Under the pieces are notes generated by a model. That model was not told the origin of the DNA. It did no database searches and saw only the letters and a list, made by a program, of their open reading frames with translations. A stretch of DNA of 64,000 nt from the NCBI GenBank assembly GCA_964036295.1, contig OZ038468.1, positions 3,282,501-3,346,500 on the forward strand, written 5' to 3'. Shown here in pieces: positions 11,939 to 62,113 of this stretch. A program made the position numbers and the translations under genes. The first letter of the stretch is position 1. The number at the start of each line of letters is the position of its first letter. Source of the DNA: Plumapathes pennacea (lineage: Eukaryota; Cnidaria; Anthozoa; Antipatharia; Myriopathidae).

Positions 11939-11951
11939 ATATATAGAGGAT

Positions 11952-14390: not shown

Positions 14391-14479
14391 TGACTTACGA
14401 TTCTTTTTGGGACGCACAAGTCTCCTTTAATTTTTGTCAGTAAGGGTCCGCCCCATTTTTTGGCCTAGTCTGATAATTG

Positions 14480-20132: not shown

Positions 20133-20151
20133 GCGCCACAAAGACGAAAAC

Positions 20152-20894: not shown

Positions 20895-21910
20895 TTAGCC
20901 TTAATATTTTGTCAAAATTCCAACATTTTTCGACCAACTCAGAATCGCATGAACCTTTCAGGAAACGTTCCTGGGACTATGCCGACAGATTTGCATAGTT
21001 TTTGTAAACTTTTAGCCGCGTGTCGTGAGAAATTGGACCAAATTAGAGCAAATATTGCACTAATTAATTCATCACACCTTTCGGGGAAACTGCTATATCT
21101 ATCTCGCCAACGGATGAAGATAGATAAAGCAAATGTATTGCAAAAAGTCTTCTTATAGTCCAAGGAAGGTTTCCTGAAAGTTTCAAGAGTTTACAATTTT
21201 TGGCCAAAATCAGCAAAAAAACCCTGTGCTATAGCCTTAGTATTTTGTCAAAATTCCAACATTTTTCGACCATCTCAGAATCGCATGAAACTTTCAGGAA
21301 ACGTTCCTGGGACTATGCCGACAGAGTTTGCATAGTTTTTGTAAACTTTTAGCCCGCGCGTCGTGAGAAATTGGACCAAATTGGAGCAAATATTGCACTA
21401 ATTAATTCATCACACCTTTCGGAGAAACTGCTATATCTCGCATACGGATGAAGATAGATAAAGCAAATGTATTGCAAAAAGTCTTCTTATAATCCAAAGA
21501 AGGTTTCCTAAAAGTTTCAAGAGTTTCCAATTTTTGGCCAAAATCGGCAAATAACACTGTGCTATAGCCTTAGTATTTTGTCAAAATTCCAACATTTTTC
21601 GACCATCTCAGAATCGCATGAAACTTTCAGGAAACGTTCCTGGGACTATGCCGACAGAGTTTGCATAGTTTTTGTAAACTTTTAGCCCTCGCGTCGTGAG
21701 AAATTGGACCAAACTAGAGCAAATATTGCACTAATTAATTCATCACACCTTTCGGAGAAACTGCTATATCTCGCCAACGGATGAAGATAGATAAAGCAAA
21801 TGTATTGCAAAAAGTCTTCTTATAGTCCAAGGAAGGTTTCCTGAAAGTTTCAAGAGTTTTCAATCTTTGGCCAAAATCAACACAAAACCCTGTGGTATAG
21901 CCTTAGTATT

Positions 21911-23242
21911 TTGTCAAAATTCCAACATTTTTCGACCATCTCGGAATCGCATGAAACTTTCAGGAAACGTTCCTGGGACTATGCCGACAGAGTTTGCATA
22001 GTTTTTGTAAACTTTTAGCCCTCGCGTCGTGAGAAATTGGACCAAATTAGAGCAAATATTGCACTAATTAATTCATCACACCTTTCGGGAAAACTGCTAT
22101 ATCTCGCCAACGGATGAAGATAGATAAAGCAAATGTATTGCAAAAAGACTTCTTATAGTCCAAGGAAGGTTTCCTGAAAGTTTCAAGAGTTTTCAATCTT
22201 TGGCCAAAATCAACACAAAACCCTGTGGTATAGCCTTAGTATTTTGTCAAAATTCCAACATTTTTCGACCTTCTCAGAATCGCATGAAACTTTCAGGAAA
22301 CGTTCCTGGGACTATGCCGACAGAGTTTGCATAGTTTTTGTAAACTTTTAGCCCTCGCGTCGTGAGAAATTGGACCAAATTAGAGCAAATATTGCACTAA
22401 TTAATTCATCACACCTTTCGGAGAAACTGCTATATCTCGCCAACGGATGAAGATAGATAAAGCAAATGTATTGCAAAAAGTCTTCTTATAGTCCAAGGAA
22501 GGTTTCCTGAAAGTTTCAAGAGTTTTCAATCTTTGGCCAAAATCAACACAAAACCCTGTGGTATAGCCTTAGTATTTTGTCAAAATTCCAACATTTTTCG
22601 ACCATCTCGGAATCGCATGAAACTTTCAGGAAACGTTCCTGGGACTATGCCGACAGAGTTTGCATAGCTTTTGTAAACTTTTAGCCCTCGCGTCGTGAGA
22701 AATTGGACCAAATTAGAGCAAATATTGCACTAATTAATTCATCACACCTTTCGGGAAAACTGCTATATCTCGCCAACGGATGAAGATAGATAAAGCAAAT
22801 GTATTGCAAAAAGACTTCTTATAGTCCAAGGAAGGTTTCCTGAAAGTTTCAAGAGTTTTCAATCTTTGGCCAAAATCAACACAAAACCCTGTGGTATAGC
22901 CTTAGTATTTTGTCAAAATTCCAACATTTTTCGACCTTCTCAGAATCGCATGAAACTTTCAGGAAACGTTCCTGGGACTAAGCCGACAGAGTTTGCATAG
23001 TTTTTGTAAACTTTTAGCCCGCGCGTCGTGAGAAATTGGACCAAATTAGAGCAAATATTGCACTAATTAATTCATCACACCTTTCGGGGAAACTGCTATA
23101 TCTCGCCAACGGATGAAGATAGATAAAGCAAATGTATTGCAAAAAGTCTTCTTATAGTCCAAGGAAGGTTCCTGAAAGTTTCAAAAGTTTTCAATTTTTG
23201 GCCAAAATCAACACAAAACCCTGTGCTATAGCCTTAGTATTT
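21911..23242 (+). repeat. Two-unit higher-order block repeated (666 bp)
   Basis: Units starting at 21,911 and 22,577 share ACCATCTCGGAATCG, the GGGAAAACTGC form and CAAAAAGACTTC. Units at 22,244 and 22,910 share ACCTTCTCAGAATCG. The pair repeats with period 666 bp. Confidence 0.75.
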
Positions 23243-23344
23243 TGTCAAAAATCCAACATTTTGCGACCTTCTCAGAATCGCATGAAACTTTCAGGAAACG
23301 TTCCTGGGACTATGCCGACAGAGTTTGCATAGTTTTTGTAAACT

Positions 23345-26300
23345 TTTAGCCCTCTCGTGGTGAGAAATTGGACCAAATTAGAGCAAATATTGCACTAATT
23401 AATTCATCACACCCTTCGGGGAAACTGCTATATCTCGCCAACGGATGAAGATAGATAAAGCAAATGTATTGCAAAAAGTCTTCTTATACTCCAAGGAAGG
23501 TTTCCTGAAAGTTTCAAGAGTTTTCAATCTTTGGCCAAAATCGGCAAAAAACCCTGTGCTATAGCCTTAGTATTTTGTCAAAATTCCAACATTTTTCGAC
23601 CATCTCGGAATCGCATGAAACTTTCAGGGAACGTTCCTGGGACTATGCCGACAGAGTTTGCATAGTTTTTGTAAACTTTTAACCCTCGCGTCGTGAGAAA
23701 TTGGACCAAATTAGAGCAAATATTGCACTAATTAATTCATCACACCTTTCGGGGAAACTGCTATATCTCGCCAACGGATGAAGATAGATAAAGCAAATGT
23801 ATTGCAAAAAGTCTTCTAATAGTCCAAGGAAGGTTTCCTGAAAGTTTCAAGAGTTTTCAATCTTTGGCCAAAATCGGCAAAAAACCCTGTGCTATAGCCT
23901 TAGTATTTTGTCAAAATTCCAACATTTTTCGACCTTCTAAGAATCGCATGAAACTTTCAGGAAACGTTCCTGGGACTATGCCGACAGAGTTTGCATAGTT
24001 TTTGTAAACTTTTAGCCCGCGCGTCGTGAGAAATTAGACCAAATTAGAACAAATATTGCACTAATTAATTCATCACACCTTTCGGAAAAACTGCTATATC
24101 TCGCCAACGGATGAAGATAGATAAAGCAAATGTATTGCAAAAAGTCTTCTTATAGTCCAAGGAAGGCTTCCTGAAAGTTTCAAGAGTTTTCAATTTTTGG
24201 CCAAAATCAACACAAAACCCTGTGCTATAGCCTTAGTATTTTGTCAAAATTCCAACATTTTTCGACCTTCTCAAAATCGCATGAAACTTTCAGGAAACGT
24301 TCCTGGGACTATGCCGACAGAGTTTGCATAATTTTTGTAAACTTTTAGCCCTCGCGTCGTGAGAAATTGGACCAAATTAGAGCAGATATTGCACTAATTA
24401 ATTCATCACACCTTTCGGGGAAACTGCTATATCTCGCCAACGGATGAAGATAGATAAAACAAATGTATTGCAAAAAGTCTTCTAATAGTCCAAGAAAGGT
24501 TTCCTGAAAGTTTCAAGAGTTTTCAATCTTTGGCCAAAATCGGCAAAAAACCCTGTGCTATAGCCTTAGTATTTTGTCAAAATTCCAACATTTTTCGACC
24601 ACCTCGGAATCGCATGAAACTTTCAGGAAACGTTCCTGGGATTATGCCGACAGAGTTTGCATAATTTTTGTAAACTTTTAGCCCGCGCGTCGTGAGAAAT
24701 TGGACCAAATTAGAGCAAATATTGCACTAATTAATTCATCACACCTTTCGGGGAAACTGTTATATCTCGCCAACGGATGAAGATAGATAAAGCAAATGTA
24801 TTGCAAAAAGTCTTCTAATAGTCCAAGGAAGGTTTCCTGAAAGTTTCAAGAGTTTTCAATTTTTGGCCAAAATCGGCAAAAAATCCTGTGCTATAGTATT
24901 TTGTCAAAATTCCAACATTTTTCGACCACCTCGGAATTGCATGAAACTTTCAGGAAACGTTCCTGGGACTATGCCGACAGAGTTTGCATAGTTTTTGTAA
25001 ACTTTTAGCCCTCGCGTCGTGAGAAATTGGACCAAATTGGAGCAAATATTGCACTAATTAATTCATCACAGCTTTCGGGAAAACTGCTATATCTCGCCAA
25101 CGGATGAAGATAGATAAAGCAAATGTATTGCAAAAAGTCTTCTTATAGTCCTAGGAAGGTTTCCTGAAAGTTTCAAGAGTTTTCAATTTTTGGCCAAAAT
25201 CGGCAAAAAACCCTGTGCTATAGCCTTAGTATTTTGTAAAAATCCCAACATTTTTCGACCATCTCGGAATCGCATGAAAGTTTCAGGAAACGTTCCTGGG
25301 ACTCAGCCGACAGAGTTTGCATAGTTTTTGTAAACTTTAAGCCCGCGCGTCGTGAGAAATTGGACCAAATTAGAGCAAATATTGCACTAATTAATTCATC
25401 ACACCTTTCGGGGAAACTGCTATATCTCGCCAACGGATGAAGATAGATAAAGCAAATGGATTGCAAAAAGTCTTCTTATACTCCAAGGAAGGTTTCCTGA
25501 AAGTTTCAAGAGTTTTCAATCTTTGGCGAAAATCAACACAAAACTCTGTGCTATAGCCTTAGTATTTTGTCAAAATTCCAACATTTTTCGACCACCTCGG
25601 AATCGCATGAAACTTTCAGGAAACGTTCCTGGGACTCAGCCGACAGAGTTTGCATAGTTTTTGTAAACTTTCAGCCCGCGCGTCGTGAGAAATTGGACCA
25701 AATTAGAGCAAATATTGCACTAATTAATTCATCACACCTTTCGGGGAAACTGCTATATCTCGCTAACGGATGAAGATAGATCAAGCAAATGTATTGCAAA
25801 AAGTCTTCTTATAGTCCAAGGAAGGTTTCCTGAAAGTTTCAAAAGTTTTCAATTTTTGGCCAAAATCGGCAAAAAACCCTGTGCTATAGCCTTAGTATTT
25901 TGTCAAAATTCCAACATTTTTCGACCACCTCGGAATTGCATGAAACTTTCAGGAAACGTTCCTGGGACTATGCCGACAGAGTTTGCATAGTTTTTGTAAA
26001 CTTTTAGCCCTCGCGTCGTGAGAAATTGGACCAAATTGGAGCAAATATTGCACTAATTAATTCATCACACCTTTCGGGGAAACTGCTATATCTCGCCAAC
26101 GGATAAAGATAGATAAAGCAAATGTATTGCAAAAAGTCTTCTTATAGTCCAAGGAAGGTTTCCTGAAAGTTTCAAGAGTTTTCAATCTTTGGCCAAAATC
26201 GGCAAAAAACCCTGTGCTATAGCCTTAGTATTTTGTCAAAATTCCAACATTTTTCGACCACCACGGAATTCATGAAACTTTCAGGAAACGTTCCTGGGAC

Positions 26301-27588
26301 TATGCCGACAGAGTTTGCATAGTTTTTGTAAACTTTTAGCCCTCTCGTGGTGAGAAATTGGACCAAATTAGAGCAAATATTGCACTAATTAATTCATCAC
26401 ACCCTTCGGGGAAACTGCTATATCTCGCCAACGGATGAAGATAGATAAAGCAAATGTATTGCAAAAAGTCTTCTTATACTCCAAGGAAGGTTTCCTGAAA
26501 GTTTCAAGAGTTTTCAATCTTTGGCCAAAATCGGCAAAAAACCCTGTGCTATAGCCTTAGTATTTTGTCAAAATTCCAACATTTTTCGACCATCTCGGAA
26601 TCGCATGAAACTTTCAGGGAACGTTCCTGGGACTATGCCGACAGAGTTTGCATAGTTTTTGTAAACTTTTAACCCTCGCGTCGTGAGAAATTGGACCAAA
26701 TTAGAGCAAATATTGCACTAATTAATTCATCACACCTTTCGGGGAAACTGCTATATCTCGCCAACGGATGAAGATAGATAAAGCAAATGTATTGCAAAAA
26801 GTCTTCTAATAGTCCAAGGAAGGTTTCCTGAAAGTTTCAAGAGTTTTCAATCTTTGGCCAAAATCGGCAAAAAACCCTGTGCTATAGCCTTAGTATTTTG
26901 TCAAAATTCCAACATTTTTCGACCTTCTAAGAATCGCATGAAACTTTCAGGAAACGTTCCTGGGACTATGCCGACAGAGTTTGCATAGTTTTTGTAAACT
27001 TTTAGCCCGCGCGTCGTGAGAAATTAGACCAAATTAGAACAAATATTGCACTAATTAATTCATCACACCTTTCGGAAAAACTGCTATATCTCGCCAACGG
27101 ATGAAGATAGATAAAGCAAATGTATTGCAAAAAGTCTTCTTATAGTCCAAGGAAGGCTTCCTGAAAGTTTCAAGAGTTTTCAATTTTTGGCCAAAATCAA
27201 CACAAAACCCTGTGCTATAGCCTTAGTATTTTGTCAAAATTCCAACATTTTTCGACCTTCTCAAAATCGCATGAAACTTTCAGGAAACGTTCCTGGGACT
27301 ATGCCGACAGAGTTTGCATAATTTTTGTAAACTTTTAGCCCTCGCGTCGTGAGAAATTGGACCAAATTAGAGCAGATATTGCACTAATTAATTCATCACA
27401 CCTTTCGGGGAAACTGCTATATCTCGCCAACGGATGAAGATAGATAAAGCAAATGTATTGCAAAAAGTCTTCTAATAGTCCAAGAAAGGTTTCCTGAAAG
27501 TTTCAAGAGTTTTCAATCTTTGGCCAAAATCGGCAAAAAACCCTGTGCTATAGCCTTAGTATTTTGTCAAAATTCCAACATTTTTCGA
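23345..27588 (+). repeat. Nine-unit offset duplication (about 2,990 bp)
   Basis: About 1.2 kb from 23,345 recurs at an offset of 2,990 bases. Shared rare variants in the same order are CCTCTCGTGGTG (23,351 and 26,341), CACCCTTCGGGG, CAGGGAACGTTCC, CTTTTAACCCTCGCG, GACCTTCTAAGAATCG (23,931 and 26,921), GGAAGGCTTCC, CTTCTCAAAATCG and GAGCAGATATTG. The similarity ends near 24,590 and 27,580. Confidence 0.85.
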
Positions 27589-30500
27589 CCATCTCGGAAT
27601 CGCATGAAACTTTCAGGAAACGTTCCTGGGACTATGCCGACAGAGTTTGCATAGTTTTTGTAAACTTTTAGCCCGCGCGTAGTGAGAAATTGGACCAAAT
27701 TAGAGCAAATATTGCACTAATTAATTCATCACACCTTTCGGGGAAACTGCTATATCTCGCCAACGGATGAAGATAGATAAAGCAAATGTATTGCAAAAGG
27801 TCTTCTTATAGTCCAAGGAAGGTTTCCTGAAAGTTTCAAGAGTTTTCAATTTTTGGCCAAAATCGGCAAAAAACCCTGTGCTATAGCCTTAGTATTTTGT
27901 CAAAATTCCAACATTTTTCGACCACCTCGGAATCGCATGAAACTTTCAGGAAACGTTCCTGGGATTATGCCGACAGAGTTTGCATAATTTTTGTAAACTT
28001 TTAGCCCGCGCGTCGTGAGAAATTGGACCAAATTAGAGCAAATATTGCACTAATTAATTCATCACACCTTTCGGGGAAACTGCTATATCTCGCCAACGGA
28101 TGAAGATAGATAAAGCAAATGTATTGCAAAAAGTCTTCTTATAGTCCAAGGAAGGTTTCCTGAAAGTTTCAAGAGTTTTCAATCTTTGGCCAAAATCGGC
28201 AAAAAACCCTGTGCTATAGCCTTAGTATTTTGTCAAAATTCCAACATTTTTCGACCACCTCGGAATTGCATGAAACTTTCAGGAAACGTTCCTGGGACTA
28301 TGCCGACAGAGTTTGCATAGTTTCTGTAAACTTTTAGCCCTCGCGTCGTGAGAAATTGGACCAAATTAGAGCAATTATTGCACTAATTAATTCATCACAC
28401 CTTTCGGGGAAACTGCTATATCTCGCCAACGGATGAAGATAGATAAAGCAAATGTATTGCAAAAAGTCTTTTAATAGTCCAAGGAAGGTTTCCTGAAAGT
28501 TTCAAGAGTTTTCAATTTTTGGCCAAAATCGGCAAAAAACCCTGTGCTATAGCCTTAGTATTTTGTCAAAATTCCAACATTTTTCGACCACCTCGGAATT
28601 CAAGAAACTTTCAGGAAACGTTCCTGGGACTATGCCGACAGAGTTTGCATAGTTTTTGTAAACTTTTAGCCCTCGCGTCGTGAGAAATTGGACCAAATTA
28701 GAGCAAATATTGCACTAATTAATTCATCACACCTTTCGGTGAAACTGCTATATCTCGCCAACGGATAAAGATAGATAAAGGAAATGTATCGCAAAAAGTC
28801 TTCTTATAGTCCAAGGAAGGTTTCCTGAAAGTTTCAAGAGTTTTCAATCTTTGGCCAAAATCGGCAAAAAACCCTGTGCTATAGCCTTAGTATTTTGTCA
28901 AAATTCCAACATTTTTCGACCATCTCGGAATCGCATGAAACTTTCAGGAAACGTTCCTGGGACTATGCCGACAGAGTTTGCATAGTTTTTGTAAACTTTT
29001 ATTCCTCGCGTTGTGAGAAATTGGACCAAATTAGAGCAAATATTGCACTAATTAATTCATCACACCTTTCGGGGAAACTGCTATATCTCGCCAACGGATG
29101 AAGATAGATAAAGCAAATGTATTGCAAAAAGTCTTCTTATAGTCCAAGGAAGGTTTCCTGAAAGTTTCAAGAGTTTTCAATCTTTGGCCAAAATCGGCAA
29201 AAAACCCTGTGCTATAGCCTTAGTATTTTGTCAAAATTCCAACATTTTTCGACCATCTCGGAATCGCATGAAACTTTCAGGAAACGTTCCTGGGACTATG
29301 CCGACAGAGTTTGCATAGTTTTTGTAAACTTTTAGCCCGCGCGTAGTGAGAAATTGGACCAAATTAGAGCAAATATTGCACTAATTAATTCATCACACCT
29401 TTCGGGGAAACTGCTATATCTCGCCAACGGATGAAGATAGATAAAGCAAATGTATTGCAAAAGGTCTTCTTATAGTCCAAGGAAGGTTTCTTGAAAGTTT
29501 CAAGAGTTTTCAATTTTTGGCCAAAATCGGCAAAAAACCCTGTGCTATAGCCTTAGTATTTTGTCAAAATTCCAACATTTTTCGACCACCTCGGAATCGC
29601 ATGAAACTTTCAGGAAACGTTCCTGGGATTATGCCGACAGAGTTTGCATAATTTTAGTAAACTTTTAGCCCGCGCGTCGTGAGAAATTGGACCAAATTAG
29701 AGCAAATATTGCACTAATTAATTCATCACACCTTTCGGGGAAACTGCTATATCTCGCCAACGGATGAAGATAGATAAAGCAAATGTATTGCAAAAAGTCT
29801 TCTTATAGTCCAAGGAAGGTTTCCGGAAAGTTTCAAGAGTTTTCAATCTTTGGCCAAAATCGGCAAAAAACCCTGTGCTATAGCCTTAGTATTTTGTCAA
29901 AATTCCAACATTTTTCGACCACCATGGAATCGCATGAAACTTTCAGGAAACGTTCCTGGGACTATGCCGACAGAGTTTGCATAGTTTTTGTAAACTTTTA
30001 GCCCTCGCGTTGTGAGAAATTGGACCAAATTAGAGCAAATATTGCACTAATTAATTCATCTCACCTTTCGGGGAAACTGCTATATCTCGCCAACGGATGA
30101 AGATAGATAAAGCAAATGTATTGCAAAAAGTCTTCTAATAGTCCAAGGAAGGTTTCCTGAAAGTTTCAAGAGTTTTCAATCTTTGGCCAAAATCGGCAAA
30201 AAACCCTGTGCTATAGCCTTAGTATTTTGTCAAAATTCCAACATTTTTCGACCACCTCGGAATTGCATGAAACTTTCAGGAAACGTTCCTGGGACTATGC
30301 CGACAGAGTTTGCATAGTTTTTGTAAACTTTTAGCCCTCGCGTCGTGAGAAATTGGACCAAATTAGAGCAATTATTGCACTAATTAATTCATCACACCTT
30401 TAGGGGAAACTGCTATATCTCGCCAACGGATGAAGATAGATAAAGCAAATGTATTGCAAAAAGTCTTTTAATAGTCCAAGGAAAGTTTCCTGAAAGTTTC

Positions 30501-31559
30501 AAGAGTTTTCAATTTTTGGCCAAAATCGGCAAAAAACCCTGTGCTATAGCCTTAGTATTTTGTCAAAATTCCAACATTTTTCGACCACCTCGGAATTCAA
30601 GAAACTTTCAGGAAACGTTCCTGGGACTATGCCGATAGAGTTTGCATAGTTTTTGTAAACTTTTAGCCTTCGCGTCGTGAGAAATTGGACCAAATTAGAG
30701 CAAATATTGCACTAATTAATTCATCACACCTTTCGGGGAAACTCCTATATCTCGCCAACGGATGAAGATGGATAAAGCAAATGTATTGCAAAAAGTCTTC
30801 TTATAGTCCAAGGAAATTTTCCTGAAAGTTTCAAGAGTTTTCAATCTTTGGCCAAAATCGGCAAAAAACCCTGTGCTATAGCCTTAGTATTTTGTCAAAA
30901 TTCCAACATTTTTCGAACATCTCGGAATCGCATGAAACTTTCAGGAAACGTTCCTGGGACTATGCCGACAGAGTTTGCATAGTTTTTGTAAACTTTTAGC
31001 CCGCGCGTAGTGAGAAATTGGACCAAATTAGAGCAAATATTGCACTAATTAAGTCATCACACCTTTCGGGAAAACTGCTATATCTCGCCAACGGATGAAG
31101 ATAGATAAAGCAAATGTATTGCAAAAAGACTTCTTATAGTCCAAGGAAGGTTTCCTGAAAGTTTCAAGAGTTTTCAATTTTTGGCCAAAATCGGCAAAAA
31201 AACCTGTGCTATAGCCTTAGTATTTTGTCAAAATTCCAACATTTTTCGACCATCTCGGAATCGCATGAAACTTTCAGGAAACGTTCCTGGGACTATGCCG
31301 ACAGAGTTTGCATAGTTTTTGTAAACTTTTAGCCCGCGCGTAGTGAGAAATTGGACCAAATTAGAGCAAATATTGCACTAATTAAGTCATCACACCTTTC
31401 GGGAAAACTGCTTTATCTCGCCAACGGATGAAGATAGATAAAGCAAATGTATTGCAAAAAGACTTCTTATAGTCCAAGGAAGGTTTCCTGAAAGTTTCAA
31501 GAGTTTTCAATTTTTGGCCAAAATCGGCAAAAAAACCTGTGCTATAGCCTTAGTATTTT

Positions 31560-33560
31560 GTCAAAATTCCAACATTTTTCGACCATCTCGGAATCGCATG
31601 AAACTTTCAGGAAACGTTCCTGGGACTATGCCGACAGAGTTTGCATAGTTTTTGTAAACTTTTAGCCCGCGCGTAGTGAGAAATTGGACCAAATTAGAGC
31701 AAATATTGCACTAATTAATTCATCACACCTTTCGGGGAAACTGCTATATCTCGCCAACGGATGAAGATAGATAAAGCAAATGTATTGCAAAAGGTCTTCT
31801 TATAGTCCAAGGAAGGTTTCCTGAAAGTTTCAAGAGTTTTCAATTTTTGGCCAAAATCGGCAAAAAACCCTGTGCTATAGCCTTAGTATTTTGTCAAAAT
31901 TCCAACATTTTTCGACCACCTCGGAATCGCATGAAACTTTCAGGAAACGTTCCTGGGATTATGCCGACAGAGTTTGCATAGTTTTTGTAAACTTTTAACC
32001 CGCGCGTCGTGAGAAATTGGACCAAATTAGAGCAAATATTGCACTAATTAATTCATCACACCTTTCGGGGAAACTGCTATATCTCGCCAACGGATGAAGA
32101 TAGATAAAGCAAATGTATTGCAAAAAGTCTTCTTATAGTCCAAGAAAGGTTTCCTGAAAGTTTCAAGAGTTTTCAATTTTTGGCCAAAATCGGCAAAAAA
32201 CCCTGTGCTATAGCCTTAGTAATTTGTCAAAATTCCAACATTTTTCGACCACCTCGGAATTGCATGAAACTTTCAGGAAACGTTCCTGGGACTATGCCGA
32301 CAGAGTTTGCATAGTTTTTGTAAACTTTTAGCCCTCGCGTCGTGAGAAATTCGACCAAATTGGAGCAGATATTGCACTAATTAATTCATCACACCTTTCG
32401 GGGAAACTGCTATATCTCGCCAACGGATGAAGATAGATAAAGGAAATGTATTGCAAAAAGTCTTCTTATAGTCCAAGGAAGGTTTCCTGAAAGTTTCAAG
32501 AGTTTTCAATCTTTGGCCAAAATCGGCAAAAAACCCTGTGCTATAGCCTTAGTATTTTGTCAAAATTCCAACATTTTTCGACCATCTCGGAATCGCATGA
32601 AACTTTCAGGAAACGTTCCTGGGACTATGCCGACAGAGTTTGCATAGTTTTTGTGAACTTTTAGCCCTCGCGTTGTGAGAAATTGGACCAAATTAGAGCA
32701 AATATTGCACTAATTAATTCATCACACCTTTCGGGGAAACTGCTATATCTCGCCAACGGATGAAGATAGATAAAGCAAATGTATTGCAAAAGGTCTTCTT
32801 ATAGTCCAAGGAAGGTTTCCTGAAAGTTTCAAGAGTTTTCAATTTTTGGCCAAAATCGGCAAAAAACCCTGTGCTATAGCCTTAGTATTTTGTCAAAATT
32901 CCAACATTTTTCGACCACCTCGGAATCGCATGAAACTTTCAGGAAACGTTCCTGGGATTATGCCGACAGAGTTTGCATAGTTTTTGTAAACTTTTAACCC
33001 GCGCGTCGTGAGAAATTGGACCAAATTAGAGCAAATATTGCACTAATTAATTCATCACACCTTTCGGGGAAACTGCTATATCTCGCCAACGGATGAAGAT
33101 AGATAAAGCAAATGTATTGCAAAAAGTCTTCTTATAGTCCAAGAAAGGTTTCCTGAAAGTTTCAAGAGTTTTCAATTTTTGGCCAAAATCGGCAAAAAAC
33201 CCTGTGCTATAGCCTTAGTAATTTGTCAAAATTCCAACATTTTTCGACCACCTCGGAATTGCATGAAACTTTCAGGAAACGTTCCTGGGACTATGCCGAC
33301 AGAGTTTGCATAGTTTTTGTAAACTTTTAGCCCTCGCGTCGTGAGAAATTCGACCAAATTGGAGCAGATATTGCACTAATTAATTCATCACACCTTTCGG
33401 GGAAACTGCTATATCTCGCCAACGGATGAAGATAGATAAAGCAAATGTATTGCAAAAAGTCTTCTTATAGTCCAAGGAAGGTTTCCTGAAAGTTTCAAGA
33501 GTTTTCAATCTTTGGCCAAAATCGGCAAAAAACCCTGTGCTATAGCCTTAGTATTTTGTC
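31560..33560 (+). repeat. Three-unit higher-order repeat (999 bp)
   Basis: Rare variants repeat at an offset of 999: GGGATTATGCC with TTTTAACCCGCGCG (about 31,955 and 32,954), CCAAGAAAGGTTTCC, AGTAATTTGTC, GAAATTCGACCAAATTGGAG and TTTTTGTGAAC. Confidence 0.85.
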
Positions 33561-35219
33561 AAAATTCCAACATTTTTCGACCATCTCGGAATCGCATGAA
33601 ACTTTCAGGAAACGTTCCTGGGACTATGCCGACAGAGTTTGCATAGTTTTTGTGAACTTTTAGCCCTCGCGTTGTGAGAAATTGGACCAAATTAGAGCAA
33701 ATCTTGCACTAATTAACTCATCACACCTTTCGGGGAAACTGCTATATCTCGCCAACGGATGAAGATAGATAAAGCAAATGTATTGCAAAAAGTCTTCTTA
33801 TAGTCCAAGGAAGGTTTCCTGAAAGTTTCAAGAGTTTTCAATCTTTGGCCAAAATCGGCAAAAAACCCTGTGCTATAGCCTTAGTATTTTGTCAAAATTC
33901 CAACATTTTTCGACCATCTCGGAATCGCATGAAACTTTCAGGAAACGTTCCTGGGACTATGCCGACAGAGTTTGCATAGTTTTTGTAAACTTTTAGCCCT
34001 CGCGTCCTGAGAAATTGGACCAAATTAGAGCAAATATTGCACTAATTAATTCATCACACCTTTCGGGGAAACTGCTATATCTCGCCAACGGATGAAGATA
34101 GATAAAGCAAATGTATTGCAAAAAGTCTTTTAATAGTCCAAGGAAGGTTTCCTGAAAGTTTCAAGAGTTTTCAATTTTTGGCCAAAATCGGCAAAAAACC
34201 CTGTGCTATAGCCTTAGTATTTTGTCAAAATTCCAACATTTTTCGACCACCTCGGAATTCAAGAAACTTTCAGGAAAAGTTCCTGGGACTATGCCGACAG
34301 AGTTTGCATAGTTTTTGTAAACTTTTAGCCCGCGCGTCGTGAGAAATTGGACCAAATTAGAGCAAATATTGCACTAATTAATTCATCACACCTTTCGGGG
34401 AAACTGCTATATCTCGCCAACGGATGAAGATAGATAAAGCAAATGTATTGCAAAAAGTCTTCTTATAGTCCAAGGAAGGTTTCCTGAAAGTTTCAAGAGT
34501 TTTCAATTTTTGGCCAAAATCGGCAAAAAACCCTGTGCTATAGCCTTAGTATTTTGTCAAAATTCCAACATTTTTCGACCATCTCGGAATCGCATGAAAC
34601 TTTCAGGAAACGTTCCTGGGACTATGCCGACAGAGTTTGCATAGTTTTTGTAAACTTTTAGCCCGCGCGTAGTGAGAAATTGGACCAAATTAGAGCAAAT
34701 ATTGCACTAATTAAGTCATCACACCTTTCGAGAAAACTGCTATATCTCGCCAACGGATGAAGATAGATAAAGCAAATGTATTGCAAAAAGACTTCTTATA
34801 GTCCAAGGAAGGTTTCCTGAAAGTTTCAAGAGTTTTCAATTTTTGGCCAAAATCGGTAAAAAAACCTGTGCTATAGCCTTAGTATTTTGTCAAAATTCCA
34901 ACATTTTTCGACCACCTCGGAATTGCATGAAACTTTCAGGAAACGTTCCTGGGACTATACCGACAGAGTTTGCATAGTTTTTGTAAACTTTTAGCCCTCG
35001 CGTCGTGAGAAATTGGACCAAATTAGAGCAAATATTGCACTAATTAATTCATCACACCTTTCGGGGAAACTCCTATATCTCGCCAACGGATGAAGATAGA
35101 TAAAGCAAATGTATTGCAAAAAGTCTTCTTATAGTCCAAGGAAGGTTTCCTGAAAGTTTCAAGAATTTTCAATCTTTGGCCAAAATCGGCAAAAAACCCT
35201 GTGCTATAGCCTTAGTATT

Positions 35220-51290: not shown

Positions 51291-53000
51291 TAGTTTTTGT
51301 AAACTTTTAGCTCTCGCGTCGTGAGAAATTGGACCAAATTAGAGCAAATATTGCACTAATTAATTCATCACACCTTTCGGGGAAACTGCTATATCTCGCC
51401 AACGGATGAAGATAGATAAAGCAAATGTATTGCAAAAAGTCTTCTTATAGTCCAAGGAAGGTTTCCTGAAAGTTTCAAGAGTTTTCAATTTTTGGCCAAA
51501 ATCGGCAAAAAACTCTGTGCTATAGCCTTAGTTTTTTGTCAAAATTCCAACATTTTTCGACCACCTCGGAATTGCATGAAACTTTCAGGAAACGTTCCTG
51601 GGACTCTGCCGACAGAGTTTGCATAGTTTTTGTAAACTTTTAGCCCTCACGTCGTGAGAAATTGGACCAAATTAGAGCAAATATTGCACTAATTAATTCA
51701 TCACACCTTTCGGGGAAACTGCTATATCTCGCCAACGGATGAAGATAGATAAAGCAAATGTATTGCAAAAAGTCTTCTTATAGTCCAAGGAAGGTTTCCT
51801 GAAAGTTTGAAGAGTTTTCAATCTTTGGCCAAAATCTGCAAAAAACCCTGTGCTATAGCCTTAGTATTTTGTCAAAATTCCAACATTTTTCGACCACCAC
51901 GGAATTCATGAAACTTTCAGGAAACGTTCCTGGGACTATGCCGACAGAGTTTGCATAGTTTTTGTAAACTTTTAGCCCTCGCGTCGTGAGAAATTGGACC
52001 AAATTAGAGCAAATATTGTACTAATTAATTCATCACACCTTTCGGGGAAACTGCTATATCTCGCCAAGGGATGAAGATAGATAAAGCAAATGTATAGCAA
52101 AAAGTCTTCTTATAGTCCAAGGAAGGTTTCCTGAAAGTTTCAAGAGTTTTCAATCTTTGGCCAAAATCGGCAAAAAACCCTGTGCTATAGCCTTAGTATT
52201 TTGTCAAAATTCCAACATTTTTCGACCATCTCGGAATCGCATGAAACTTTCAGGAAACGTTCCTGGGACTATGCCGACAGAGTTTGCATAGTTTTTGTAA
52301 ACTTTTAGCCCTCGCGTCGTGAGAAATTGGACCAAATTAGAGCAAATATTGCACTAATTAATTCATCACACCTTTCGGGGAAACTGCTATATCTCGCCAA
52401 CGGATGAAGATAGATAAAGCAAATGTATTGCAAAAAGTCTTCTTATAGTCCAAGGAAGGTTTCCTGAAAGTTTCAACAGTTTTCAATCTTTGGCCAAAAT
52501 CGGCAAAAAACCCTGTGCTATAGCCTTAGTATTTTGTCAAAATTCCAACATTTTTCGACCATCTCGGAATTGCATGAAACTATCAGGAAAGGTTCCTGGG
52601 ACTATGGCGACAGAGTTTGCATAGTTTTTGTAAACTTTTAGCCCTCGCGTCCTGAGAAATTGGACCAAATTAGAGCAAATATTGCACTGATTAATTCATC
52701 ACACCTTTCGGGGAAACTGCTATATCTCGCCAACGGATGAAGATAGATAAAGCAAATGTATTGCAAAAAGTCTTCTAATAGTCCAAGGAAGGTTTCCTGA
52801 AAGTTTCAAGAGTTTTCAATCTTTGGCCAAAATCGGCAAAAAACCCTGCGCTATAGCCTTAGTATTTTGTCAAAATTCCAACATTTTTCGACCACCTCGG
52901 AATCAAATGAAACTTTCAGGAAACGTTCCTGGGACTATGCCGACAGAGTTTGTATAGTTTTTGTAAACTTTCAGCCCTCGCGTCGTGAGAAATTGGACCA
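49540..53000 (+). repeat. Nine-unit offset duplication (2,996 bp)
   Basis: The rare cluster AAACTATCAGGAAAGGTTCC with ATGGCGACAG (49,581 and 52,577 region), CCTGCGCTATAG, CGGAATCAAATG and GTTTGTATAG recurs at offset 2,996. Confidence 0.85.
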
Positions 53001-54879
53001 AATTAGAGCAAATATTGCACTAATTAATTCATCACACCTTTCGGGGAAACTGCTATATCTCGCCAACGGATGAAGATAGATAAAGCAAATGTATTGCAAA
53101 AAGTCTTCTTATAGTCCAAGGAAGGTTTCCTGAAAGTTTCAAGAGTTTTCAATCTTTGGCCAAAATCGGCAAAAAACCCTGTGCTATAGCCTTAGTATTT
53201 TGTCAAAATTCCAACATTTTTCGACCATCTCGGAATCGCATGAAACTTTCAGGAAACGTTCCTGGGACTATGCCGACAGAGTTTGCATAGTTTTTGTAAA
53301 CTTTCAGCCCTCGCGTTGTGAGAAATTGGACCAAATTAGAGCAAATATTGCACTATTTAATTCATCACACCTTTCGGGGAAACTGCTATATCTCGCCAAC
53401 GGATGAAGATAGATAAAGCAAATGTATTGAAAAAAGTCTTCGTATAGTCCAAGGAAGGTTTCCTGAAAGTTTCAACAGTTTTCAATCTTTGGCCAAAATC
53501 GGCAAAAAACCCTGTGCTATAGCCTTAGTATTTTGTCAAAATTCCAACATTTTTCGACCATCTCGGAATCGCATGAAACTTTCAGGAAACGTTCCTGGGA
53601 CTATGCCGACAGAGTTTGCATAGTTTTTGTAAACTTTTAGCCCTCGTGTCGTGAGAAATTGGACCAAATTAGAGCAAATATTGCACTAATTAATTCATCA
53701 CACCTTTCGGGGAAACTGCTATATCTCGCCAACGGATGAAGATAGATAAAGCAAATGTATTGCAAAAAGTCTTCTTATAGTCCAAGGAAGGTTTCATGAA
53801 AGTTTCAAGAGTTTTCAATCTTTGGCCAAAATCGGCAAAAAACCCTGTGCTATAGCCTTAGTATTTTGTCAAAATTCCAACATTTTTCGACCACCTCGGA
53901 ATCGCATGAAACTTTCAGGAAACGTTCATAGGACTATGCCGACAGAGTTTGCATAGTTTTTGTAAACTTTCAGCCCTCGCGTCCTGAGAAATTGGACCAA
54001 ATTAGAGCAAATATTGCACTAATTAATTCATCACACCTTTCGGGGAAACTGCTATATCTCGCCAACGGATGAAGATAGATAAAGCAAATGTATTGCAAAA
54101 AGTCTTCTTATAGTCCAAGGAAGGTTTCCTGAAAGTTTCAAGAGTTTTCAATCTTTGGCCAAAATCGGCAAAAAACCCTGTGCTATAGCCTTAGTATTTT
54201 GTCAAAATTCCAACATTTTTCGACCATCTCGGAATCGCATGAAACTTTCAGGAAACGTTCCTGGGACTATGCTGACAGAGTTTGCATAGTTTTTGTAAAC
54301 TTTCAGCCCTCGCGTCCTGAGAAATTGGACCAAATTAGAGCAGATATTGCACTAATTAATTCATCACACCTTTCGGGGAATCTGCTATATCTCGCCAACG
54401 GATGAAGATAGATAAAGCAAATGTATTGCAAAAAGTCTTCTTATAGTCCAAGGAAGGTTTCCTGAAAGTTTCAAGAGTTTTCAATTTTTGGCCAAAATCG
54501 GCAAAAAACCCTGTGCTATAGCCTTAGTATTTTGTCAAAATTCTAACATTTTTCGACCATATCGGAATCGCATGAAACTTTCAGGAAACGTTCCTGGGAC
54601 TATGCCGACAGAGTTTGCATAGTTTTTGTAAACTTTTAGCCCTCTCGTCGTGAGAAATTGGACCAAATTAGAGCAAATATTGCACTAATTAATTCATCAC
54701 ACCTTTCGGGGAAACTGCTATATCTCGCCAACGGATGAAGATAGATAAAGCAAATGTATTGCAAAAAGTCTTCTTATAGTCCAAGGAAGGTTTCCTGAAA
54801 GTTTCAAGAGTTTTCAATTTTTGGCCAAAATCGGCAAAAAACCCTGTGCTATAGCCTTAGTATTTTGTCAAAATTCCAA

Positions 54880-57800
54880 CATTTTTCGACCACCTCGGAA
54901 TTGCATGAAACTTTCAGGAAACGTTCCTGGGACTATGCCGACAGAGTTTGCATAGTTTTTGTAAACTTTTAGCCCTCGCGTCGTGAGAAATTGGACCAAA
55001 TTAGAGCAAATATTGCTCTAATTAATTCATCACACCTTTCGGGGAAACTCCTATATCTCGCCAACGGATGAAGATAGATAAAGCAAATGTATTGCAAAAA
55101 GTCTTCTTATAGTCCAAGGAAGGTTTCCTGAAAGTTTGAAGAGTTTTCAATTTTTGGCCAAAATCGGCAAAAAACCCTGTGCTATAGCCTTAGTATTTTG
55201 TCAAAATTCCAACATTTTTCGACCATCTCGGAATTGCATGAAACTTTGAGGAAACGTTCCTGGGACTATGCCGACAGTGTTTGCATAGTTTTTGTAAACT
55301 TTTAGCCCTCGCGTCGTGAGAAATTGGACCAAATTAGAGCAAATATTGCACTAATTAATTCATCACACCTTTCGGGGAAACTCCTATATCTCGCCAACGG
55401 ATGAAGATAGATAAAGCAAATGTATTGCAAAAAGTCTTCTTATAGTCCAAGGAAGGTTTCCTGAAAGTTTCAACAGTTTTCAATCTTTGGCCAAAATCGG
55501 CAAAAAACCCTGTGCTATAGCCTTAGTATTTTGTCAAAATTCCAACATTTTTCGACCATCTCGGAATCGCATGAAACTTTCAGGAAACGTTCCTGGGACT
55601 ATGCCGACAGAGTTTGCATAGTTTTTGTAAACTTTTAGCCCTCGCGTCCTGAGAAATTGGACCAAATTAGAGCAAATATTGCACTAATTAATTCATCACA
55701 CCTTTCGGGGAAACTGCTATATCTCGCCAACGGATGAAGATAGATAAAGCAAATGTATTGCAAAAAGTCTTCTTATAGTCCAAGGAAGGTTTCCTGAAAG
55801 TTTCAAGAGTTTTCAATCTTTGGCCAAAATCGGCAAAAAACCCTGTGCTATAGCCTTAGTATTTTGTCAAAGTTCTAACATTTTTCGACCATATCGGAAT
55901 CGCATGAAACTTTCAGGAAACGTTCCTGGGACTATGCCGACAGAGTTTGCATAGTTTTTGTAAACTTTTAGCCCTCGCGTCGTGAGAAATTGGACCAAAT
56001 TAGAGCAAATATTGCACTAATTAATTCATCACACCTTTCGGGGAAACTGCTATATCTCGCCAACGGATGAAGATAGATAAAGCAAATGTATTGCAAAAAG
56101 TCTTCTTATAGTCCAAGGAAGGTTTCCTGAAAGTTTCAAGAGTTTTCAATTTTTGGCCAAAATCGGCAAAAAACCCTGTGCTATAGCCTTAGTATTTTGT
56201 CAAAATTCCAACATTTTTCGACCATCTCGGAATTGCATGAAACTTTGAGGAAACGTTCCTGGGACTATGCCGACAGAGTTTGCATAGTTTTTGTAAACTT
56301 TTAGCCCTCGCGTCGTGAGAAATTGGACCAAATTAGAGCAAATATTGCACTAATTAATTCATCACACCTTTCGGGGAAACTGCTATATCTCGCCAACGGA
56401 TGAAGATAGATAAAGCAAATGTATTGCAAAAAGTCTTCTTATAGTCCAAGGAAGGTTTCCTGAAAGTTTCAAGAGTTTTCAATTTTTGGCCAAAATCGGC
56501 AAAAAACCCTGTGCTATAGCCTTAGTATTTTGTCAAAATTCCAACATTTTTCGACCACCTCGGAATTGCATGAAACTTTCAGGAAACGTTCCTGGGACTA
56601 TGCCAACAGAGTTTGCATAGTTTTTGTAAACTTTTAGCCCTCGCGTCGTGAGAAATTGGACCAAATTAGAGCAAATATTGCTCTAATTAATTCATCACAC
56701 CTTTCGGGGAAACTCCTATATCTCGCCAACGGATGAAGATAGATAAAGCAAATGTATTGCAAAAAGTCTTCTTATAGTCCAAGGAAGGTTTCCTGAAAGT
56801 TTGAAGAGTTTTCAATTTTTGGCCAAAATCGGCAAAAAACCCTGTGCTATAGCCTTAGTATTTTGTCAAAATTCCAACATTTTTCGACCATCTCGGAATT
56901 GCATGAAACTTTGAGGAAACGTTCCTGGGACTATGCCGACAGTGTTTGCATAGTTTTTGTAAACTTTTAGCCCTCGCGTCGTGAGAAATTGGACCAAATT
57001 AGAGCAAATATTGCACTAATTAATTCATCACACCTTTCGGGGAAACTGCTATATCTCGCCAACGGATGAAGATAGATAAAGCAAATGTATTGCAAAAAGT
57101 CTTCTTATAGTCCAAGGAAGGTTTCCTGAAAGTTTCAACAGTTTTCAATCTTTGGCCAAAATCGGCAAAAAACCCTGTGCTATAGCCTTAGTATTTTGTC
57201 AAAATTCCAACATTTTTCGACCATCTCGGAATCGCATGAAACTTTCAGGAAACGTTCCTGGGACTATGCCGACAGAGTTTGCATAGTTTTTGTAAACTTT
57301 TAGCCCTCGCGTCCTGAGAAATTGGACCAAATTAGAGCAAATATTGCACTAATTAATTCATCACACCTTTCGGGGAAACTGCTATATCTCGCCAACGGAT
57401 GAAGATAGATAAAGCAAATGTATTGCAAAAAGTCTTCTTATAGTCCAAGGAAGGTTTCCTGAAAGTTTCAAGAGTTTTCAATGTTTGGCCAAAATCGGCA
57501 AAAAACCCTGTGCTATAGCCTTAGTATTTTGTCAAAGTTCTAACATTTTTCGACCATATCGGAATCGCATGAAACTTTCAGGAAACGTTCCTGGGACTAT
57601 GCCGACAGAGTTTGCATAGTTTTTGTAAACTTTTAGCCCTCGCGTCGTGAGAAATTGGACCAAATTAGAGCAAATATTGCACTAATTAATTCATCACACC
57701 TTTCGGGGAAACTGCTATATCTCGCCAACGGATGAAGATAGATAAAGCAAATGTATTGCAAAAAGTCTTCTTATAGTCCAAGGAAGGTTTCCTGAAAGTT

Positions 57801-57910
57801 TCAAGAGTTTTCAATTTTTGGCCAAAATCGGCAAAAAACCCTGTGCTATAGCCTTAGTATTTTGTCAAAATTCCAACATTTTTCGACCATCTCGGAATTG
57901 CATGAAACTT
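54880..57910 (+). repeat. Five-unit higher-order repeat (1,665 bp), right part of array
   Basis: ATTGCTCTAATT, AACTCCTATATC, AAGTTTGAAGAG, CTTTGAGGAAACG, CGACAGTGTTTG (55,276 and 56,941 for AGTGT), and AAAGTTCTAACATT with CCATATCGG recur in order at offset 1,665. Confidence 0.88.
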
Positions 57911-60900
57911 TGAGGAAACGTTCCTGGGACTATGCCGACAGAGTTTGCATAGTTTTTGTAAACTTTTAGCCCTCGCGTCGTGAGAAATTGGACCAAATTA
58001 GAGCAAATATTGCACTAATTAATTCATCACACCTTTCGGGGAAACTGCTATATCTCGCCAACGGATGAAGATAGATAAAGCAAATGTATTGCAAAAAGTC
58101 TTCTTATAGTCCAAGGAAGGTTTCCTGAAAGTTTCAAGAGTTTTCAATTTTTGGCCAAAATCGGCAAAAAACCCTGTGCTATAGCCTTAGTATTTTGTCA
58201 AAATTCCAACATTTTTCGACCATCTCGGAATTGCATGAAACTTTCAGGAAACGTTCCTGGGACTATGCCGACAGAGTTTGCATAGTTTTTGTAAACTTTT
58301 AGCCCTCGCGTCGTGAGAAATTGGACCAAATTAGAGCAAATATTGCACTAATTAATTCATCACACCTTTCGGGGAAACTGCTATATCTCGCCAACGGATG
58401 AAGATAGATAAAGCAAATGTATTGCAAAAAGTCTTTTTATAGTCCAAGGAAGGTTTCCTGAAAGTTTCAAGAGTTTTCAATCTTTGGCCAAAATCGGCAA
58501 AAAACCCTGTGCTATAGCCTTAGTATTTTGTCAAAATTCCAACATTTTTCGACCACCTCGGAATCGCATGAAACTTTCAGGAAACGTTCCTGGGACTCTG
58601 CCGACAGAGTTTGCATAGTTTTTGTAAACTTTTAGCCCTCGCGTCATGAGAAATTGGACCAATTTAGAGCAAATATTGCACTAATTAATTCATCACACCT
58701 TTCGGGGAAACTGCTATATCTCGCCAACGGATGAATATAGATAAAGCAAATGTATTGCAAAAAGTCTTCTTATAGTCCAAGGAAGGTTTCCTGAAAGTTT
58801 CAAGAGTTTTCAATCTTTGTCCAAAATCGGCAAAAAACCCTGTGCTATAGCCTTAGTATTTTGTCAAAATTCCAACATTTTTCGACCATCTCAGAATCGC
58901 ATGAAACTTTCAGGAAACGTTCCTGGGACTATGCCGACATAGTTTGCATAGTTTTTGTAAACTGTTAGCCCTCGCGTCGTGAGAAATTGGACCAAATTAG
59001 AGCAAATATTGCACTAATTAATTCATCACACCTTTCGGGAAAACTGCTATATCTCGCCAACGGATGAAGATAGATAAAGCAAATGTATTGCAAAAAGTCT
59101 TCTTATAGTCCAAGGAAGGTTTCCTGAAAGTTTCAAGAGTTTTCAATCTTTGGCCAAAATCGGCAAAAAACCCTGTGCTATAGCCTTAGTATTTTGTCAA
59201 AATTCCAACATTTTTCGACCATCTCGGAATCGCATGAAACTTTCAGGAAACGTTCCTGGGACTATGCCGACAGAGTTTGCATAGTTTTTGTAAACTTTCA
59301 GCCCTCGCGTCCTGAGAAATTGGACCAAATTAGAGCAAATATTGCACTAATTAATTCATCACACCTTTCGGGGAAACTGCTATATCTCGCCAACGGATGA
59401 AGATAGATAAAGCAAATGTATTGCAAAAAGTCTTCTTATAGTCCAAGGAAGGTTTCCTGAAAGTTTCAAGAGTTTTCAATTTTTGGCCAAAATCGGCAAA
59501 AAACCCTGTGCTATAGCCTTAGTATTTTGTCAAAATTCCAACATTTTTCGACCACCTCGGAATTGCATGAAACTTTCAGGAAACGTTCCTGGGACTATGC
59601 CGACAGAGTTTGCATAGTTTTTGTAAACTTTTAGCCCTCGCGTCGTGAGAAATTGGACCAAATTAGAGCAAATATTGCACTAATTAATTCATCACACCTT
59701 TCGGGGAAACTGCTATATCTCGCCAACGGATGAAGATAGATAAAGCAAATGTATTGCAAAAAGTCTTCTTATAGTCCAAGGAAGGTTTCCTGAAAGTTTC
59801 AACAGTTTTCAATCTTTGGCCAAAATCGGCAAAAAACCCTGTGCTATAGCCTTAGTATTTTGTCAAAATTCCAACATTTTTCGACCATATCGGAATCGCA
59901 TGAAACTTTCAGGAAACGTTCCTGGGACTATGCCGACAGAGTTTGCATAGTTTTTGTAAACTTTTAGCCCTCGCGTCGTGAGAAATTGGACCAAATTAGA
60001 GCAAATATTGCACTAATTAATTCATCACACCTTTCGGGAAAACTGCTATATCTCGCCAACGGATAAAGATAGATAAGGCAAATGTATTGCAAAAAGTCTT
60101 CTTATAGTCCAAGGAAGGTTTCCTGAAAGTTTCAACAGTTTTCAAACTTTGGCCAAAATCGGCAAAAAACCCTGTGCTATAGCCTTAGTATTTTGTCAAA
60201 ATTCCAACATTTTTCGACCACCTCGGAATCGCATGAAACTTTCAGGAAACGTTCATGGGACTATGCCGACAGAGTCTGCAAAGTTTTTGTAAACTTTTAG
60301 CCCTCGCGTCGTGAGAAATTGGACCAAATTAGAGCAAATATTGCACTAATTAATTCATCACACCTTTCGGGGAAACTGCTATATCTCGCCAACGGATGAA
60401 GATAGATAAAGCAAATGTATTGCAAAAAGTCTTCTTATAGTCCAAGGAAGATTTCCTGAAAGTTTGAAGAGTTTTCAATCTTTGGCCAAAATCGGCAAAA
60501 AACCCTGTGCTATAGCCTTAGTATTTTGTCAAAATTCCAACATTTTTCGACCACCTCGGAATCGCATGAATCTTTCAGGAAACGTTCCTGGGACTATGCC
60601 GACAGAGTTCGCGTAGTTTTTGTAAACTTTTAGCCCTTGCGTCGTGAGAAATTGGACGAAATTAGAGCAAATATTGCACTAATTAATTCATCACACCTTT
60701 CGGGGAAACTGCTATATCTCGCCAACGGATGAAGATAGATAAAGCAAATGTATTGCAAAAAGTCTTCTTATAGTCCAAGGAAGGTTTCCTGAAAGTTTCA
60801 ACAGTTTTCAATCTTTGGCCAAAATCAACACAAAACCCTGTGCTATAGCCTTAGTATTTTGTCAAAATTCCAACATTTTTCGACCTTCTCAGAATCGCAT

Positions 60901-61629
60901 GAAACTTTCAGGAAACGTTCTTGGGACTATGCCGACAGAGTTTGCATAGTTTTTGTAAACTTTCAGCCCTCGCGTCGTGAGAAATTGGACCAAATTAGAG
61001 CAAATATTGCACTAATTAATTCATCACACCTTTCGGGGAAACTGCTATATCTCGCCAACGGATGAAGATAGATAAAGCAAATGTATTGCAAAAAGTCTTC
61101 TTATAGTCCAAGGAAGGTTTCCTGAAAGTTTCAACAGTTTTCAATCTTTGGCCAAAATCGGCAAAAAACCCTGTGCTATAGCCTTAGTATTTTGTCAAAA
61201 TTCCAACAATTTTCGACCATCTCGGAATCGCATGAAACTTTCAGGAAACGGTCCTGGGACTATGCCGACAGAGTTTGCATAATTTTTGTAAACTTTTAGC
61301 CCTCGCGTCGTGAGAAATTGGACCAAATTAGAGCAAATATTGCACTAATTAATTCATCACACCTTTCGGGGAAACTGCTATATCTCGCCAACGGATGAAG
61401 ATAGATAAAGCAAATGTACTGCAAAAAGTCTTCTAATTGTCCAAGGAAGGTTTCCTGAAAGTTTCAAGAGTTTTCGATTTTTGGCCAAAATCGGCAAAAA
61501 ACCCTGTGCTATAACCTTAGTATTTTGTCAAAATTGCAACAATTTTCGACCATCTCAGAATCGTATGAAACTTTCAGGGAACGTTCGTGGGAGTATGCCG
61601 ACAGAGTTTGCATAGTTTTTGTAAACATT

Positions 61630-62110
61630 TAGCCCGCGCTTCGTGAGAAATTAGAGCAAATCATCGACTAATTGAAACATCACACCTTTCAAACTTTTAA
61701 GCGGATTTGCTGCTATATCTCGCCAACGGATAAAGATACGTAAAGCAAATGTATTGTAGAAAGTCTTCTTAAGGTCCCAGGAAGGTTTCCTGAAAGTTTC
61801 AAGAGTTTTCAATTTTTGGCCAAAATCGGCAAAAAACCCTGTATTATATCTTCAGTCAGTATGCCTTAGTATTTTGTCAAAATCCGGTCATTTTTCGACC
61901 ATCTCAGAATCGCATGAAACTTTCAGTAAATGTTCCTGGTGCTATGCCGACAGTGTTTACATAATTTTTATAAACTTTAAGCCCGCGCGTCGTGAGAAAT
62001 ATGAGCAAATCATCGACTAATTAAAACATCACACCTTTCAAAGTTTTAAGCGGTTTTGCTGCTATATCTAGCCAATGGATGAAGATACATAAATCAAATG
62101 TATTGCAGAA
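61630..62110 (+). repeat. Divergent right-edge forward units
   Basis: The last forward units keep the older form: GAGAAATTAGAGCAAATCAT without the 10-bp GGACCAAATT present in core units, TCGACTAATT, and CACCTTTCAAACTTTTAAGC in place of CACCTTTCGGGGAAAC. The final unit also has CCGGTCATTTTTCGACC. These match the left reverse flank when complemented. An extra stretch near 61,840-61,860 (TATATCTTCAGTCAG) adds to the spacing (61,525 to 61,874). Confidence 0.85.
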
Positions 62111-62113
62111 ACT

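Follow-up and report, generated by a model that had tools for sequence, protein, structure and literature searches.

The satellite array and its surroundings

The window analysed here is a stretch of 64,000 nucleotides (C7:3282501-3346500) from a 290-Mb genome of 24 contigs, among which C1-C12 are chromosome-sized (14.9-42.4 Mb) and C13-C20 measure 29-102 kb. Its features are collected in Table 1. On the left side of the window, an open frame of 1079 aa that is rich in TPR repeats matched 15 Pfam families, mostly of TPR types, and presumably resembles a TTC34-type protein. Three further open frames have peptide strings in common pairwise, with HGGLKIWILFSRGK present in the frames starting at 4358 and 11934 and KYCFYHSKIKFISS in those starting at 4358 and 8536. 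They probably belong to another dispersed repeat, and a Pfam search of the open frames 8621-9100 and 11934-12329 gave no match.

Table 1. Features of the window, with positions counted from its first letter
Position	Strand	Feature	Evidence
4358..4768	+	Open frame, probably part of another dispersed repeat	Common peptide strings
4868..8107	-	Open frame with many TPR repeats	Pfam search
8536..9100	-	Open frame, probably part of another dispersed repeat	Common peptide strings
10651..10761	-	Solitary diverged half-unit of the satellite family, model 40-151	Profile map
11934..12329	-	Open frame, probably part of another dispersed repeat	Common peptide strings
12686..13063	+	Reverse-transcriptase fragment, probably a LINE-type remnant	RVT_1, E 7.6e-9
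14470..14612	+	Solitary diverged half-unit of the satellite family, model 39-188	Profile map
20153..20895	-	Inverted units (~2.2), identity 0.952 to the C1:3.83-Mb subfamily and 0.909 to the window core	Profile map, subfamily comparison
20197..21599	.	Imperfect palindrome of 1.4 kb (84 % overall) over the left edge and the first core units; innermost arms split by a 1-nt gap at 20895, on the unit's GGCTATAGCC dyad axis	Palindrome search, split alignment
20896..61667	+	Core array of homogeneous 333-bp units, mean pairwise identity 0.97	TRF, lag identity, anchor spacing, monomer alignment
61668..62113	+	Right-edge units in core orientation, closer to the C1:3.83-Mb subfamily	0.919 and 0.958, vs 0.890 and 0.867 to the core
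62114..62322	-	Partial unit in reverse orientation that ends the right edge; orientation changes at 62114-62115	Profile map, split alignment

The first-pass annotation, made from the letters of the window, described a long and homogeneous satellite with a 333-bp unit at 20895..62110, and this description was confirmed. TRF reported a tandem array at 20891-62000 with a period of 333, 123.4 copies, 96 % matches and a score of 76,626, and the self-identity at lag 333 was 0.907. Spacings between anchors (n=123) were 333 in 89 cases, 332 in 19 and 334 in 12, with a larger deviation in 3. Measured against their own consensus, the 123 aligned monomers had a median identity of 0.982; just two, at the very start (0.926) and the very end (0.801) of the array, fell below 0.95. 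The mean monomer identity across the array was 0.97, and with the first and last monomers excluded, the mean pairwise identity was 0.971 at lag 1 and still 0.962 at lag 91-123. The commonest distances to the nearest neighbour were 5 units (22 monomers), 9 (13), 3 (11) and 2 (9). These distances, together with the slight drift in identity, show block duplications and the absence of a sharp higher-order repeat in the window array. The array was also correctly described as free of genes, as the longest stop-free frame across 21060-62015 has 90 aa, the Rfam scan of the window gave zero families at gathering score and the tRNA search of the window found none. Long head-to-tail arrays, a non-coding unit and genome-wide abundance (see below) place the repeat among satellite DNAs.

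The unit is an imperfect inverted dimer

The first reading of the 333-bp unit as a two-nucleosome period was numerically right, but the unit turned out to be an inverted dimer. The alignment of the window consensus with its own reverse complement scored 127, while none of 200 shuffles exceeded 94, and that of the family consensus scored 153, compared with at most 102 among 500 shuffles. As both scores lie beyond the shuffle maxima, the unit is an ancient imperfect inverted dimer of a half-unit of about 170 bp. The best-matched stretch of this symmetry is an inverted pair of about 30 bp, and one dyad axis of the unit lies at GGGCTATAGCC (positions 174-184 of the unit model). A direct dimer of 166 bp was ruled out, because the identity of 0.26 at lag 166 (and likewise at 167) is at background and the halves are imperfect inverted repeats.

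The single-strand fold of one unit had z = -3.7. The power of A/T dinucleotides shows an excess near 10.7 bp (band fraction 0.109 vs a mean of 0.041), a value reached by 1 of 300 block shuffles, and this period is in line with nucleosome positioning without being proof of it. Among six solitary matches to the family, the A half was present in four, most of the unit in one and a short central piece in one, an excess of A halves that is biased as some of these matches came from half-A patterns.

Retrozymes are tandem repeats with units of a few hundred bp that arise from circular RNAs containing a hammerhead ribozyme. The short tandem copies of the present family resemble metazoan retrozymes as outlined in PMC7229834. 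However, none of the Rfam families reached the gathering score in the window, and the 9 permissive matches in 20001-23000 included no hammerhead. A ribozyme or retrozyme identity was rejected on these Rfam scans, and we see next to no chance that the family is a retrozyme-like element. Matches to MIR8562, MIR2606 and MIR1444 were below the gathering score, the best of them lying on the palindrome, and were treated as chance hairpins.

Copy number and distribution in the genome

Markers for both halves of the unit were counted across the genome at ≤3 mismatches. The half-A marker had 13,057 matches, the half-A core 13,855 and the half-B core 13,805, with 0 matches for each of the reversed-pattern controls. 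The count of the half-A marker rules out a satellite of a single locus. In total the family has about 13,900 units, which at 335 bp per unit amount to 4.6 Mb or about 1.6 % of the genome. The true share is probably higher, since a diverged marker had 5,700 matches at ≤2 mismatches (reversed control 0), which may overlap with those of the other markers; its exact matches lie on at least 10 of the 12 chromosomes. Among the matches listed, several arrays were found on each of C1, C2 and C7 in addition to the chromosome ends. Neighbouring matches outside the window are about 322-377 bp apart, and the unit spacing varies by locus, with values of 322/335, 324, 334, 335, 347/348 and 355 bp among the matches listed. 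Searches of prokaryote genome and viral contig collections with exact unit patterns gave 0 matches.

The variant found in the window is far more local. A 39-base marker for it had 136 genome copies at ≤3 mismatches, 122 of them inside the window. Among the 100 places listed, 12 were outside the window, all at C7:14.470-14.474 Mb, and the remaining 2 copies lie outside the window on the reverse strand. A 49-base marker, with 4 matches in the genome, was too specific for mapping the family. Confinement to this one locus, which the first-pass annotation had named as the outcome that would speak against its reading, is thus nearly the case for the exact window subfamily, but not for the family in the assembly.

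These distributions bear on the centromeric role that had been proposed for the array. If the window array were the functional centromere or pericentromere of C7, other chromosomes would use other variants of the family. A long, homogeneous and gene-free array of a variant nearly confined to C7 would suit this role, as would the inverted symmetry and the A/T periodicity with regard to nucleosome positioning. Against this, the window variant forms a second array 11 Mb away on the same chromosome (C7:14.47 Mb) and a close variant forms one at C7:1.23 Mb, the family is dispersed over many interstitial sites on at least 10 of the 12 chromosomes with one subfamily being subtelomeric, and arrays tens of kb long exist elsewhere (e.g. 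C1:6.62-6.64 Mb and C1:8-42 kb). Three matches to a loose CENP-B-box mask, found at ≤2 mismatches, may be due to chance. The centromeric role is therefore unsupported and, in our opinion, very unlikely. More likely, the window array grew locally out of older remains of the repeat, and its chromatin is most likely ordinary repeat heterochromatin without a locus-specific function.

A subfamily at chromosome ends

We surveyed a terminal piece of 1.5 kb at all 24 chromosome ends, five of the left-end pieces consisting of N, together with eight pieces slightly further inward. In these pieces, in the pieces 15 kb inward described below and among the marker matches listed, family arrays were found at no fewer than 11 of the 24 ends (C1L, C3L, C5L, C6L, C1R, C2R, C4R, C5R, C6R, C7R and C8R), and their orientation is uniform in 11/11, with + at left ends and - at right ends. 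The left end of C2 was excluded from this count, as it carries just a distant relative (65 %). This relative is a tandem family with units of about 370-390 bp, which suggests an older branch. Pieces of 300 bases taken 15 kb inward at 18 ends gave a family match in 3 and none in 15.

At the left end of C3, telomeric CCCTAA is followed by a short telomere-associated sequence and then by family units, and telomeric or telomere-associated repeats lie near the arrays at C3L, C5L, C5R, C6L, C7R and C1R. Arrays near telomeric repeats at several ends characterise subtelomeric satellites, and this holds for the subtelomeric subfamily, but not for the window array. A marker of the subtelomeric type had 2,638 genome matches at ≤2 mismatches. 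On C1, where the exact copies are fully covered, they number 58 at 8.4-42.5 kb and 4 at 42.351-42.352 Mb with none between, so that all 62 are ≤44 kb from an end. On C2, the 38 exact copies listed begin 81 kb before the chromosome end, at 37.86 Mb, and none comes earlier. Another, rarer variant is present in 20 exact copies, of which 17 lie at C6:7-27 kb, one at C2R and two at C4R. The subtelomeric link of the family is not universal. Family matches lie about 337 kb inside the contig end at C4R and 42-44 kb inside at C1R, and the C6R and C8R contigs terminate within arrays, where an assembly break is possible.

Two side observations concern the ends themselves. A telomere-associated repeat, often with 144-bp spacing, lies between the TTAGGG telomeres and the satellite, and none of the 29 matches to a 26-mer from it (≤3 mismatches) is further than about 121 kb from a chromosome end. 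The left end of C3 (C3:1-1500) contains a head-to-head CCCTAA/TTAGGG junction.

Ends and interior arrays are homogenised differently

Identities were compared in a matrix of 197 units longer than 290 bp, using at most the best-scoring 20 per array (the 20 from the window were drawn from its top 110), and means between arrays were computed from the first 10 units of each. Subtelomeric arrays at C3L, C6R, C7R and C8R (7, 3, 2 and 4 units) were 0.955-0.975 identical between chromosomes, which is about the level within arrays. For 11 interstitial arrays, the identity between loci was 0.82-0.97; within arrays it was 0.958-0.976 in 8 of the 11 and 0.86-0.92 in the other three. The three arrays on C7 (1.23, 3.30 and 14.47 Mb) cluster at 0.958-0.967, with C6:8.74 Mb next at 0.934-0.943. 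As expected under concerted evolution, the nearest neighbour lies within the same array for 184 of the 197 units in this sample of best-scoring units (≤20 per array).

These values suggest that chromosome ends exchange units with one another and that arrays inside the arms are homogenised locally. A single family in a single assembly thus has one common version at the ends and a version of its own in each interior array, side by side, and we consider this combination the most interesting trait of the family. With the orientation flips at array edges, the two regimes offer a concrete system for how satellites arise, flip and spread.

Orientation flips and array edges

Orientation was mapped in 11 arrays with a profile built with one strand per place. 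Because the profile edges are slurred near the junctions, these were placed by split alignment. Opposite-strand units directly adjoin six of the 11 arrays (window, C1:3.83, C1:5.13, C7:1.23, C6:8.74 and C2:12.55 Mb) and lie 0.5 kb away at C2:30.7 Mb and 2.4 kb away at C7:14.47 Mb. No flips were seen at C1:24.7 Mb, C2:8.1 Mb and C1:3.20 Mb, with a single edge visible at the last. The single orientation attributed to the window array in the first reading applies to the core, but fails at its two edges, where inverted units adjoin (Table 1). The left switch falls between model positions 179 and 180, at the middle of the dyad axis, and the innermost palindrome arms there are 97 bp long and 86 % complementary. 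With inverted subunits in each monomer and arrays that switch orientation, the family has a macro-dyad arrangement of the Tribolium type.

Regarding the position of the switches, the picture is less sharp. The 15 junctions lie at varied positions, with no conserved inversion-site sequence. When they were compared with a spacerless palindrome, 4 fell within 10 bp (0.9 expected, P 0.011), 4 within 20 bp (P 0.094) and 9 within 40 bp (3.5 expected, P 0.003), and the in-phase class held 3 (P 0.15) with one choice of width and 6 (P 0.036) with another, values that come from n=15, with thresholds picked after the data had been seen and several junctions being weak on one side (scores 55-112). In four of the 15 junctions (window 62114; C1:5.136, C6:8.7466 and C1:3.8306 Mb) we observed that one side is shifted by 111-113 model positions relative to the other, which is unexplained.

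Satellite arrays and palindromes are difficult to assemble and some contigs end within arrays, and the edge inversions and the array length could partly be artefacts of assembly. The palindrome arms are, however, just 83-93 % alike, unlike foldback reads, and the divergence of the arms at the left palindrome of the window argues against an artefact of that kind. Flips also recur at independent loci, and we regard an artefact as quite improbable.

Both edges of the window array are closer to the C1:3.83-Mb subfamily than to the core. On the right, three matches had identities of 0.919, 0.958 and 0.937 to that subfamily and 0.890, 0.867 and 0.921 to the core. At this locus, a younger variant therefore appears to have expanded within older repeat remains. 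This pattern is clear just for the window and partly for C7:1.23 Mb (the left edge and part of the right edge); the edges of the C1:3.83, C1:5.13 and C6:8.74 Mb arrays are mostly closest to the subfamily of their own array.

Origin and spread of the family

Short dispersed copies, inverted edges and solitary half-units could indicate that the tandem repeats are the inner section of a transposable element (MITE, foldback, Helitron/Helentron or Pearl type), which would act as their carrier, and TE-associated satellite repeats are described for the Pacific oyster in PMC10048060. The flanks and copy ends speak against such a carrier. Fifteen short loci have no common flank beyond the unit, and mutual matches between the 3-kb flanks of 9 arrays are ≤174 bp. 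Copy ends are scattered over the unit, with no common position in the unit register for 5′ ends (n=30, Rayleigh P 0.79) or 3′ ends (n=36, P 0.07), as counted at loci other than seven at contig ends and at ends more than 60 bases from the locus edge; eight 5′ ends at model positions 1-8 may reflect the start of the linear model. Fixed termini with terminal inverted repeats, as in cut-and-paste elements, MITEs or foldback elements, were thus not found. A terminal-inverted-repeat element, which the inverted edges had suggested, was ruled out since the three arrays flipped on both sides have their outer units in the same orientation. By the flank and copy-end tests, the family is not a classical transposable element, and a TE carrier appears unlikely.

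The explanation that we favour, and hold to be probable, is that the window array expanded recently on chromosome 7, within older remains of a non-coding family of inverted-dimer satellites that occurs genome-wide and is linked to subtelomeres, in which the ends are kept alike, interstitial arrays are homogenised singly and spread would be based on recombination. The 41-kb core may have grown from one variant unit in the older remnant by unequal exchange or amplification of a rolling-circle type. The orientation flips could stem from strand switching between inverted half-units, by foldback or template switching. No transposase would be involved; recombination would move the family in the form of tandem fragments or circles, the transfer agent being putative. 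Recombination is the best-supported route, and the mechanism of spreading is deduced from the patterns described above.

A bolder version would see in the family a transposase-free satellite that seeds itself. As each unit is an inverted dimer, a broken or stalled strand would fold back at the dyad, flip and seed a new homogeneous array in an old remnant; subtelomeric arrays would be a common reservoir homogenised between chromosomes, and interstitial arrays would radiate into chromosome-specific subfamilies. We offer this version as a speculative one, with a rather low chance of being correct.

Comparison with known satellites

In the open-licence literature on satellites of corals, cnidarians, scleractinians and sea anemones, titles and abstract openings mention no such family, and the excerpt of PMC9005458 that describes coral FISH markers contains none either. 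Satellites with inverted subunits and orientation switches, dispersed satellites and subtelomeric satellites are already known, and the family described here is a new example.

The available text on Tribolium madens (PMC13081366) describes satellites TmSat1 and TmSat2 that resemble the present family in a short progenitor, inverted subunits in the monomer (TmSat2), arrays that change orientation and three levels of dyad symmetry. They differ in that they form multi-megabase, putative (peri)centromeric regions, whereas the arrays here are dispersed and subtelomeric. Moreover, as that text has it, inversion sites are conserved in T. madens and contig-specific clustering is not pronounced, in contrast to the varied sites and strong locus-specific clustering seen here. 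PMC13081366 also cites a 385-bp satellite of Trichogramma brassicae whose inverted repeats measure 80 bp. It is similar, by its description, in unit length and in having long inverted repeats within the unit. By comparison with that brief description, the symmetry in the present unit spans nearly its whole length and is degenerate outside the core of about 30 bp.

Clusters accompanied by scattered short copies on many chromosomes are known from short arrays of Drosophila, clusters of Locusta and repeats of Crassostrea gigas, in so far as PMC10048060 summarises them. Compared with these dispersed euchromatic satellites, no TE carrier was found for the present family, and its telomere-near subfamily has a fixed orientation. 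Repeats near telomeres that are common to several chromosome ends are likewise typical of the subtelomeric satellites or TAS outlined in PMC8122249, but the same family here also forms long interstitial arrays.
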